DNA of 28,154 bases from a virus: positions 1-28,154 of IMG/VR virus record IMGVR_UViG_3300025759_000521; one strand, given 5' to 3'. Positions 7,516 to 11,909 of the stretch are shown here, piece after piece. How positions within the stretch are numbered: the stretch's first letter is position 1; each line of letters starts with the position of its first letter. Both the position numbers and the translations under genes were made by a program. The notes beneath the pieces are model-generated. The model did no database searches and was not told where the DNA came from. It saw only the letters and a list, made by a program, of their open reading frames with translations.

Positions 7516-7587
7516 GTCGGATGTTGGGCGAGATGGTGTAGCAAAGGGAGGTCATGGCTCCTGCGCGCATTTGAGCCCACATCCGGC
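7516..7587 (+). ncRNA. Structured leader: long hairpin just upstream of the tmRNA-like RNA
   Basis: GTCGGATGT-T-GGGC (7516-7529) pairs with GCCC-ACATCCGGC (7575-7587): 13 pairs with one bulged T and one G-U. Inside it is a smaller GGAG/CTCC stem. A GGGTGC/GCACCC hairpin lies further upstream (7478-7495). The stretch 7455-7592 has no convincing gene, only a possible six-codon ATG frame. It ends five bases before the tmRNA-like domain and may be part of the same primary transcript. Confidence 0.45.
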
Positions 7588-7592
7588 GCATG

Positions 7593-7671
7593 GGGGGTGG
7601 TAACGGTTTCGACGGTTAGTAAGGCCGTTAGCGGCACTGACCGGACCTGGGTTCGACTCCCAGCACCTCCA
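7593..7671 (+). ncRNA. tmRNA-like RNA: tRNA-like domain without messenger domain
   Basis: This 79-nt element carries both halves of a tmRNA tRNA-like domain. The 5' GGGGGTG (7593-7599) pairs with CACCTCC (7664-7670), including a G-U at the third pair, the known recognition feature for alanyl-tRNA synthetase, and A7671 is the discriminator. GGTTTCGACGG (7605-7615) matches the stemless D-region of tmRNA at the same distance from the acceptor as in E. coli. CGGAC then a perfect T-arm (CTGGG TTCGACT CCCAG, 7647-7663) match the tmRNA 3' end. In place of the roughly 300-nt messenger and pseudoknot region, CGGTTAGT/ACTGACCG (7613-7620, 7636-7643) forms the start of helix P2, closed by GCCG-TTAG-CGGC. 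No anticodon loop, no tag frame; CCA is not encoded. A decoding tRNA is excluded by this arm; an attachment-site remnant is possible. Confidence 0.75.
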
Positions 7672-7707
7672 TGATGGCGATTCTCTTCAAAAACAAGTGA
7701 GGGGCTG

Positions 7708-10417: not shown

Positions 10418-10555
10418 TCATCGTTCCCACCAGTTCCGAAGCGTTCGACCACTGAGCCGCGCCAGCGTTGTCCGGCGTCCCCTCCTCCAGCCGTGTCGCC
10501 AGACGGCATAAGTGTAGACGGCTAAGACCGTCGCACTCCAGATGGTTGTGATCAT
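10418..10555 (-). CDS. Small membrane-type protein downstream of integrase
   Basis: A 45-codon ORF whose ATG overlaps the integrase stop as ATGA. Hydrophobic N-terminus (ITTIWSATVLAVYTYAVW, 2-19) followed by a strongly basic tail (RHGWRRGRRTTLARL), the orientation of a membrane anchor with a positive inside tail. A further tiny ORF (10421-10356, 21 codons) follows with ATGA overlap but is too short to assess, and an orphan GGGGGAGGT site without a standard start codon lies further on. Coupling makes translation plausible; function unknown. Confidence 0.5.
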   Translation of the reverse strand: MITTIWSATVLAVYTYAVWRHGWRRGRRTTLARLSGRTLRNWWER

Positions 10556-11601
10556 GTTGCTGCCACCTCTATGAATCTGTTTGTTGTGAACATCTGACGC
10601 ACACTAGCGACGGCATCAACTCGCGCATTGTTTGCATCTGAAGTCATGCGGTCAAATCGGCGACGGATCACGTTACCTGGGGTCGTACCCATGCACATGG
10701 CAATAAGGAATGGGTGCGCGTCTGCCTCGACCATGCCAATAGCACCGGCATCACGAATCTCTTGGAAACGCACACCGATCTTGCGAGCACGATTCGTCAT
10801 TTGTTTGGCGTTCCCAAAGTAGGCCAAAGCTGCTCGTACATCATCTGCGTATCGTGATGGCACCAGCACGGCCCTCTCCACCCCCCGAGCCATCTTGCCT
10901 TTGAACGGCGTACCGGGGATGCGAACGGTCACGCACGGAACCTCACCAAGCGGGTGACGCTCGACCCATTCGCGAACGATCCATGAAGAGGACGTAGCCG
11001 CATACACTTCATGCGACGACACGGAGGAGTGACCAGCAAGCTCCATGGCTGTACGGATGTCGGCACCTTGATCAAGCATCGCCGTCAAAGAGGTGTGGCG
11101 TAGCGCGTGGGGCGTCGAGGTGTCTGTGACACGCTCTAGGTAGTTCGAAATAATGAGCCTCATACCCGACTCACTGATCGAACCGCCCCTGTATGAGGTG
11201 AAGACAAACGGACTATCGCCGCGCTCTGGGAGCAACTCGAGGGCACTCATGCCGACAGGAACAGTGCGCCTCTTCCCACCCTTGCCCACAACCCGCAAAG
11301 AGTCGTTGTCGAGAACATCACTCCAGGTGAGTCGGCGAATCTCAATCTGCCGTAGCCCCATCACAGTGGCGAGGTAGAGGATGGCGTAATCACGACGAGA
11401 GTCCGCGAGGCTCAACAGATCGATCGACTCATCAACACTCAAGGCGCGGCCATGATCGTAGGAGCTTGGTGGGCTCCAGCCGTCCAAGACATCCTCCGGC
11501 TGGGCGGCTGCGATGTCGCGCAACGTCATTCCGGCAAACGATGCGATCACGGCACCACGGTCGTGGGCGTTGTCTAGTCGAGCCAGAATTTCATTAATCA
11601 T
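10552..11601 (-). CDS. int: Tyrosine recombinase / phage integrase with unusual architecture
   Basis: The 349-residue protein carries all catalytic residues of tyrosine recombinases: R84 (MGLRQIE), K107 (VVGKGGK), H165 and R168 (HALRHT), H191 (LAGHSS) and Y200 (HEVY). These enzymes cut and rejoin DNA at att or dif-type sites. The catalytic domain starts near residue 50, so the usual ~100-residue core-binding domain is missing or very reduced. Instead about 145 residues follow the active tyrosine, an extension without recognised motif. I start at the ATG at 11601, which forms ATGA with the upstream stop, has a GGAG site, and excludes a track of 27 residues inside the previous gene. The operon partner genes lie upstream. 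Confidence 0.88.
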   Translation of the reverse strand: MINEILARLDNAHDRGAVIASFAGMTLRDIAAAQPEDVLDGWSPPSSYDHGRALSVDESIDLLSLADSRRDYAILYLATVMGLRQIEIRRLTWSDVLDNDSLRVVGKGGKRRTVPVGMSALELLPERGDSPFVFTSYRGGSISESGMRLIISNYLERVTDTSTPHALRHTSLTAMLDQGADIRTAMELAGHSSVSSHEVYAATSSSWIVREWVERHPLGEVPCVTVRIPGTPFKGKMARGVERAVLVPSRYADDVRAALAYFGNAKQMTNRARKIGVRFQEIRDAGAIGMVEADAHPFLIAMCMGTTPGNVIRRRFDRMTSDANNARVDAVASVRQMFTTNRFIEVAAT

Positions 11602-11909
11602 GCTCCATCCTCCCAATTGCCGAGCCACTCGAAAGCGACCTCGTAGTGTGAGGGCAGACCAGTTGGGGACTTGCCACCCCACCTGACTGCCAGACGAATG
11701 TCGTCAGCGTTATCGCGACCGCGAGCCACCTCTGCCATCAAGCCAAGTGCGTCGGTGTACCGCTTGGATACGAGCCCTAGACCCCACGGGTCATGGGCTG
11801 TCCCAAACATGACCCGCCCACGCTCCCCTGTCGGCTCGACCACAAACTCTGGCATGAGTGCCGCCAGCCGTGTGAGCGCGTCTTTCGTTGACCTCGTCAC
11901 CTTGCTCAT
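11598..11909 (-). CDS. Hypothetical protein between DUF2786-like gene and integrase
   Basis: A 103-residue protein with a helical N-terminus (TKDALTRLAALM), then GRVMFGTAHDPWGLGLV and a C-terminal beta/aromatic part (HYEVAFEWLGNW). Coupled by ATGA at both ends. No family recognised; its fixed place directly before int suggests a shared transcript, not necessarily a shared function. Confidence 0.6.
   Translation of the reverse strand: MSKVTRSTKDALTRLAALMPEFVVEPTGERGRVMFGTAHDPWGLGLVSKRYTDALGLMAEVARGRDNADDIRLAVRWGGKSPTGLPSHYEVAFEWLGNWEDGA

Follow-up and report, generated by a model that had tools for sequence, protein, structure and literature searches.

The window, by which we mean the whole stretch of DNA that was analysed, is an entire IMG/VR record of 28,154 bases, classed as linear. 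Its recognised genes are phage-like and encode a C5-methylase, an SSB, a primase zinc-finger protein, a DnaB-like helicase, a Sak4-like protein, exonuclease VIII, and a tyrosine integrase; no structural gene was found in it, and its three largest open reading frames have no family match. Between the SSB and primase genes, and on the same strand as both, lies a 79-nt element (7593-7671, + strand) that holds a complete tRNA-like domain (TLD) of tmRNA and that we call a mini-tmRNA. Its parts, together with the integrase gene, are as follows.

7593-7599, + strand: acceptor stem 5' strand, GGGGGUG (G3 is 7595); relatives covary at pairs 4-6
7600-7612, + strand: D-loop-like joining segment, GG plus the UUCGA of the tmRNA TLD; GG is invariant in the 21 rows of alignment A3
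7613-7620, + strand: P2 5' strand, CGGUUAGU (Rfam match and fold); P2 covaries in relatives
7621-7635, + strand: AAG bulge and apical hairpin GCCG-UUAG-CGGC (fold), in the place of the whole messenger and pseudoknot region
7636-7643, + strand: P2 3' strand, ACUGACCG (Rfam match and fold)
7644-7646, + strand: GAC linker of the TLD (Rfam match)
7647-7663, + strand: T-arm, 5-bp stem with loop UUCGACU (Rfam match and fold)
7664-7671, + strand: acceptor 3' strand CACCUCC (U70 is 7668) and discriminator A73 (7671) (sequence and Rfam match)
10552-11682, - strand: tyrosine integrase, about 2.9 kb from the element

The earlier note had placed a tmRNA-like RNA with the full TLD and no messenger domain at exactly these coordinates. 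Consistent with this, the Rfam tmRNA model RF00023 matches the element end to end at 64.6 bits (E = 2.7e-23; gathering cut-off, 47) with 308 internal model positions deleted, which leaves neither a messenger-like domain nor a tag reading frame. The parts that the note had listed could all be located in sequence and fold: the acceptor of 7 pairs (7593-7599 with 7664-7670), whose third pair is G7595-U7668 (G3-U70), GGUUUCGAC at 7605-7613, CGGAC at 7642-7646, the T-arm, and the A discriminator. Its description of P2 as closed by a 4-base loop was right about the loop and incomplete about the stem, since P2 proper comprises 8 bp (7613-7620 with 7636-7643) and is followed by the 3-nt AAG bulge (7621-7623) and an apical stem of 4 bp that bears the UUAG loop. 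When 7593-7674 was folded alone, the minimum free energy (MFE) was -35.4 kcal/mol (z, -2.37) and the centroid was exactly the TLD fold; the MFE structure has an extra 2-bp helix in the D-loop-like segment. The fold contains no anticodon stem and no pseudoknot between the P2 strands, which are separated by only 15 nt (bulge plus hairpin). CCA is not encoded; TGA comes next.

No other Rfam family matched anywhere in the window at E up to 1; the mitochondrial tmRNA model RF02544 is not among the reported matches, of which only the best is kept where matches of one clan overlap. R1, a covariance model derived from 21 other elements with the window excluded, scored the element at 74.5 bits (E = 1.9e-15), and ARAGORN reported 0 genes in the window, neither tRNA nor tmRNA. 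Like standard tmRNA (RF00023), the element thus has a TLD with a G3-U70 acceptor, UUCGAC, P2, and a T-arm, and it scores above the gathering cut-off. Unlike standard tmRNA, it is without a messenger domain or pseudoknot region, mini-tmRNAs being about 80 nt long, whereas the full tmRNA genes seen here measure 350 to 400 nt.

The same shortened element, with strongly covarying P2 pairs, was found in at least 117 plus at least 36 further viral contigs. A first IMG/VR pattern, which fixed only UUCGAC, GGAC, and the T-arm and left the acceptor free, returned at least 119 stretches, with an acceptor of 6 to 7 bp in at least 117 viral contigs (L011 and L096, with no acceptor, were left out). When the window and two copies from Streptomyces phages are added, the set amounts to at least 120 loci, at least 83 distinct sequences, and at least 49 clusters at about 85% similarity. 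A second pattern, looser and with UCCA required at the 3' end, returned at least 120 stretches and thereby at least 37 new loci, 36 of the 37 scoring at least 44 bits with R1. The two scans and a few named records (88 + 44 sources) yield at least 121 distinct mini-tmRNAs of at least 44 bits with this model, which gives full or permuted tmRNA loci at most 34 bits. Six of the 132 R1 matches fell below 44 bits and were left out: L158:2892 and L222 are tRNAs by Rfam, L217 lies inside a full tmRNA, L221 adjoins a permuted one, L184 is of unclear identity, and L142:592 is diverged.

Seven cultured phages carry a mini-tmRNA, and in none is it annotated as an RNA: Streptomyces phages pSt2308, LuckySocke, GiJojo, BRock, Alone3, and Riptide, and Stenotrophomonas virus Jojan60, whose copy sits immediately 5' of the DNA primase gene. 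A 27-kb Pseudonocardia 'plasmid unnamed3' (L224, NZ_CP053567.1) carries one as well; this replicon resembles a phage genome, with capsid, prohead protease, and integrase genes. The Riptide element (L218:972-1048) has lost UUCGAC and GGAC and has kept G3-U70, a P2-like stem, and an apical AAAGCCGCACGCGGAA hairpin. Two contigs have two mini-tmRNA-like RNAs each, L142 at 592-668 and 737-800 and L183 at 5-81 and 1317-1392; the first copy in L142 is diverged (34.9 bits) but retains a family-type apical hairpin.

Named phages gave no megablast match to 25 kb of the window, the only close relative of the window phage is a 99.96% identical record (L042/L160), and three distant relatives with a related neighbour protein (L161-L163) had no R1 match in the stretch searched. 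The elements of L022, L013, and L083, used as queries, brought no additional full-length named phage. Distant BLAST matches in fetched phage records were discarded: those in crAss-like, Enterococcus, Flavobacterium, Ruegeria, Pseudomonas, and Streptococcus phage records (one or two each) are full or permuted tmRNAs, that in a Vibrio phage record is a tRNA, and those in two Synechococcus phages are not of the mini form. The crAss-like phage cr50_1 (L164:868-1034) has a RAGATH-22 RNA (155.6 bits) shortly upstream of a permuted tmRNA. Among 35 matches in bacterial genomes, 29 were dropped, 27 lying inside full tmRNAs, L157 in a tmRNA cut by a contig end, and L146 having no Rfam match. An R1 scan of 396 genomes from the phylum of the Mycobacterium MAG, in which about 12 candidates were scored per genome and losses are likely, gave a single match, the starting genome itself.

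Comparison of the relatives points to constraint on the fold. P2 extends over a mean of 6.9 contiguous pairs, against 1.9 (maximum, 2.5) with shuffled partners, a test that is independent of alignment A4. In A4, which comprises 90 rows (two weak matches among them, one of these a tRNA) and is fitted to the model and hence biased towards structure, 97.8% of cells are paired, with 505 double-change cells (0 of 500 shuffles as high) and double changes at 16 pairs against a shuffled mean of 12; sliding the partners by 1 to 3 columns left 38 to 56% paired. Acceptor pairs 4, 5, and 6 have 26, 37, and 32 double-change rows, respectively, pairs 1 and 2 show no variation, and pair 3 is G-U in 89 of the 90 rows, the remaining row being the tRNA. 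Conservation of UUCGAC, which the search pattern fixed, is not a free observation; that of G3-U70 and A73 is, because the first pattern left the acceptor unfixed. Among the matches listed, G3-U70 is present in 82 of 83 distinct elements and A73 in all 83, the sole exception to G3-U70 being L023, which carries a small deletion and is otherwise nearly identical to L007. A seven-pair acceptor, G3-U70, and A73 occur without exception in the 121 distinct elements of at least 44 bits with R1. Both G3-U70 and A73 are established determinants of alanine charging by AlaRS.

The apical hairpin motif CC[GA]CNNG[CT]GG recurs in 32 of the 83 distinct elements and an A-rich stretch 5' of the CC in 71, a pattern that favours a shared origin over the repeated shortening of host ssrA. 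An Ala codon with an in-frame stop inside the element is no commoner than in shuffled sequences (28 of 83; shuffled mean, 24; range, 13 to 33), and a hidden very short tag was rejected on this ground. Judging by these sequence comparisons, the mini-tmRNA fold is under strong selection and is no relic, and the element comprises a complete TLD with alanine identity elements and no tag frame, much as the earlier note had envisaged.

ARAGORN gave no match in the examined stretch at 94 of 120 loci, and at L061:5905-6228 and L041:11236-11879 it lays long or permuted tmRNAs with implausible tags over the mini-tmRNA, so that some annotated phage tmRNAs may be mini forms. Rfam does not catch every mini-tmRNA either, since the elements of Alone3 (36.8 bits with the tmRNA model, under the cut-off), Riptide (no tmRNA match at E up to 0.001), and Parafrankia (no tmRNA match at the cut-off) score 64.1, 64.5, and 70.8 bits, respectively, with R1.

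The genes that neighbour mini-tmRNAs vary and lie on either strand. In 63 representative loci, open reading frames of at least 70 aa were taken by simple longest-ORF calling (54 of 61 nearest downstream, 54 of 60 nearest upstream), and no constant neighbour gene or protein partner emerged among the 54 downstream and 54 upstream frames, as would be expected if the RNA acts in trans and relies on host proteins alone. A portal gene and a DnaB-like helicase gene were each nearest downstream in 2 of 54, and an HNH nuclease gene was nearest upstream in 4 of 54. Hitch-hiking in tRNA arrays was rejected, as a same-strand tRNA lies within 300 nt at only 18 of 120 loci (21 less L041, L061, and L093, where the ARAGORN call overlaps the element). 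A simple scan found no promoter-like or terminator-like site near the window element, which has no TANNNT at -12. Elsewhere, 8 of 80 distinct upstream sequences (some of the 8 near copies, L034 and L038) have a TANNNT box beginning at -12, against at most 4 for any other position, as if transcription starts at G1 in those relatives. Just 5' of the window element, a very stable hairpin (7516-7587; -37.2 kcal/mol; z, -4.3) has no Rfam match; strong hairpins also stand 5' of other mini-tmRNAs (z below -2 in 21 of 80, upstream tRNAs included), some of them terminator-like (L007, L073).

A phage tmRNA reduced to the TLD is already known. The available portions of PMC4131195 and PMC11915505, through which we cite the finding, name a single phage example, that of Mycobacterium phage DS6A (tmID 11587; Mao et al. 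2009). Like this RNA, the window element is phage-encoded, in one piece, and little more than a TLD with no tag CDS, at 79 nt in a virus record of 28,154 bases, a likeness drawn from the published description as excerpted there. According to the same portions, a molecule like the DS6A tmRNA was reported to inhibit endogenous tmRNA in E. coli (PMC11915505), and in one of the two citing papers (PMC4131195 or PMC11915505) a similar molecule inhibits 'whether or not chargeable'. The 2025 tmRNA database, in the part available, holds 9 'standard, no CDS' entries among 97,179 tmRNAs and 79 phage sequences in all (PMC11915505), and an excerpted survey counts 402 phage genomes with tmRNA genes among 18,146, one-piece and two-piece forms being told apart by ARAGORN (PMC9004378). 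CDS-less mitochondrial tmRNA (RF02544) and the ~65-bp plastid tmRNAs of Mallomonadaceae likewise have no tag frame but are organellar, the mitochondrial ones usually permuted, whereas the window element is one piece and phage-borne (PMC11915505, in excerpt). We recognised no description of a broad phage family of TLD-only tmRNAs in the accessible portions of the open-licence literature. What is new is the breadth of the family and its kept alanine identity.

SmpB was found in 0 of 75 carrier records, where each absence is weak, the records often being fragments (10 of 14 control genomes gave a match); the RNA would therefore depend on host SmpB. With the standard model only, no full-length standard tmRNA appeared in 37 viral records, often fragments, and 3 phages; that model gave no match at all in L015 and L031, their own elements included, and a score below the cut-off for L041. 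We think it rather probable that this phage RNA, charged by the host and bound by EF-Tu and host SmpB, suppresses or diverts trans-translation during infection, and that it most likely acts as an alanylated decoy engaging host AlaRS, EF-Tu, and SmpB. The mini-tmRNA would be transcribed in the infected host, matured by host tRNA enzymes (by RNase P or, in some relatives, through its own start at G1, with CCA added), loaded with alanine by host AlaRS, and recognised by EF-Tu and host SmpB. Such a complex may then enter stalled ribosomes and/or tie up SmpB, leaving host tmRNA unable to tag and resume. Because the mini-tmRNA offers no message on which to resume, it should block or divert rescue. 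That G3-U70 persists where neighbouring pairs have drifted suggests that the RNA does more than titrate SmpB and that its function includes charging, hence peptidyl transfer on the ribosome; a pure sponge should not need this pair, and the reported inhibition 'whether or not chargeable' does not explain its retention. However, acceptor pairs 1 and 2 are also invariant, and pair 3 is thus not alone in being constrained.

A bolder formulation may be offered tentatively, and we regard it as possible though doubtful: a widespread phage RNA family would have made the charging half of tmRNA into a stand-alone effector for which alanylation is essential, and which enters stalled ribosomes with host SmpB, moves the nascent chain onto alanine, and either ends the round untagged, so that ribosomes are recovered and truncated phage proteins are spared tagging, or locks host rescue in an active dead end. 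Rescue without a tag, taken on its own, seems to us unlikely. Here the charged mini-tmRNA and SmpB would take over the stalled peptide and end the round through release by another factor, recovering ribosomes and leaving proteins unmarked for proteolysis. The kept alanine identity, superfluous for a pure sponge, would suit such a role, and CDS-less mitochondrial tmRNA is thought still to aid with incomplete mRNAs (PMC11915505, in the part available); yet there is no template to resume on, the release step is putative, and the effect reported in the portions cited above for a similar molecule is inhibition. Still less likely is another use of the charged RNA, or of the TLD within a longer transcript, as an alanine donor outside the ribosome or as a signal that acts in cis in cleavage or regulation. 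In its favour, the nearest downstream gene encodes a major head protein in 6 of 54 loci, and five that were identified (L007, L024, L040, L049, L081) have it next 3' on the strand of the element; but the remaining neighbours vary and lie on either strand, and alanine identity and the TLD features point to tmRNA factors. The earlier suggestion that the RNA might prime or recruit something found no support.

Five bacterial genomes or MAGs with the element, whose element-bearing contigs may be misbinned phages in the case of MAGs, all have a full tmRNA as well; the standard-model scan also listed the element in four of them, while the search of bacterial genomes and R1 place it in the fifth (Parafrankia). 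Compared with host ssrA, the acceptor stem differs in 4 of the 5 and the 3' end in 5 of 5. Tyrosine integrases were matched in 10 of 75 carrier records, near copies included (the window and L042, L059 and L111, L086 and L092). The alternative raised in the earlier note, an attP core of ssrA integration or a decayed tmRNA, fits these data poorly and strikes us as highly improbable: the window does encode a tyrosine integrase about 2.9 kb away, an integrase match lies no more than about 1.1 kb from the element in L059 and L086, and one Pseudomonas phage record has an attR-marked stretch inside its ssrA gene, itself full-length, but the 5' and 3' halves of the mini-tmRNA are joined with covarying P2 and apical hairpin, 65 of the 75 records have no match in a search for tyrosine integrases alone, and the 3' end is unlike that of host ssrA in every genome compared.

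In conclusion, the mini-tmRNA represents, to judge by sequence, a phage RNA family that is common and highly conserved and that probably serves to obstruct or redirect ribosome rescue in the host. For annotation, it carries a warning that ARAGORN mostly overlooks these genes or puts false long tmRNAs on them. With at least 121 distinct members, phage interference with ribosome rescue may be common and not a curiosity. The family supplies natural variants, including those of cultured Streptomyces phages, with which to test why phages target trans-translation, and these variants bear on whether a TLD without a message works as a sponge, a dead-end substrate, or a tagless rescuer.
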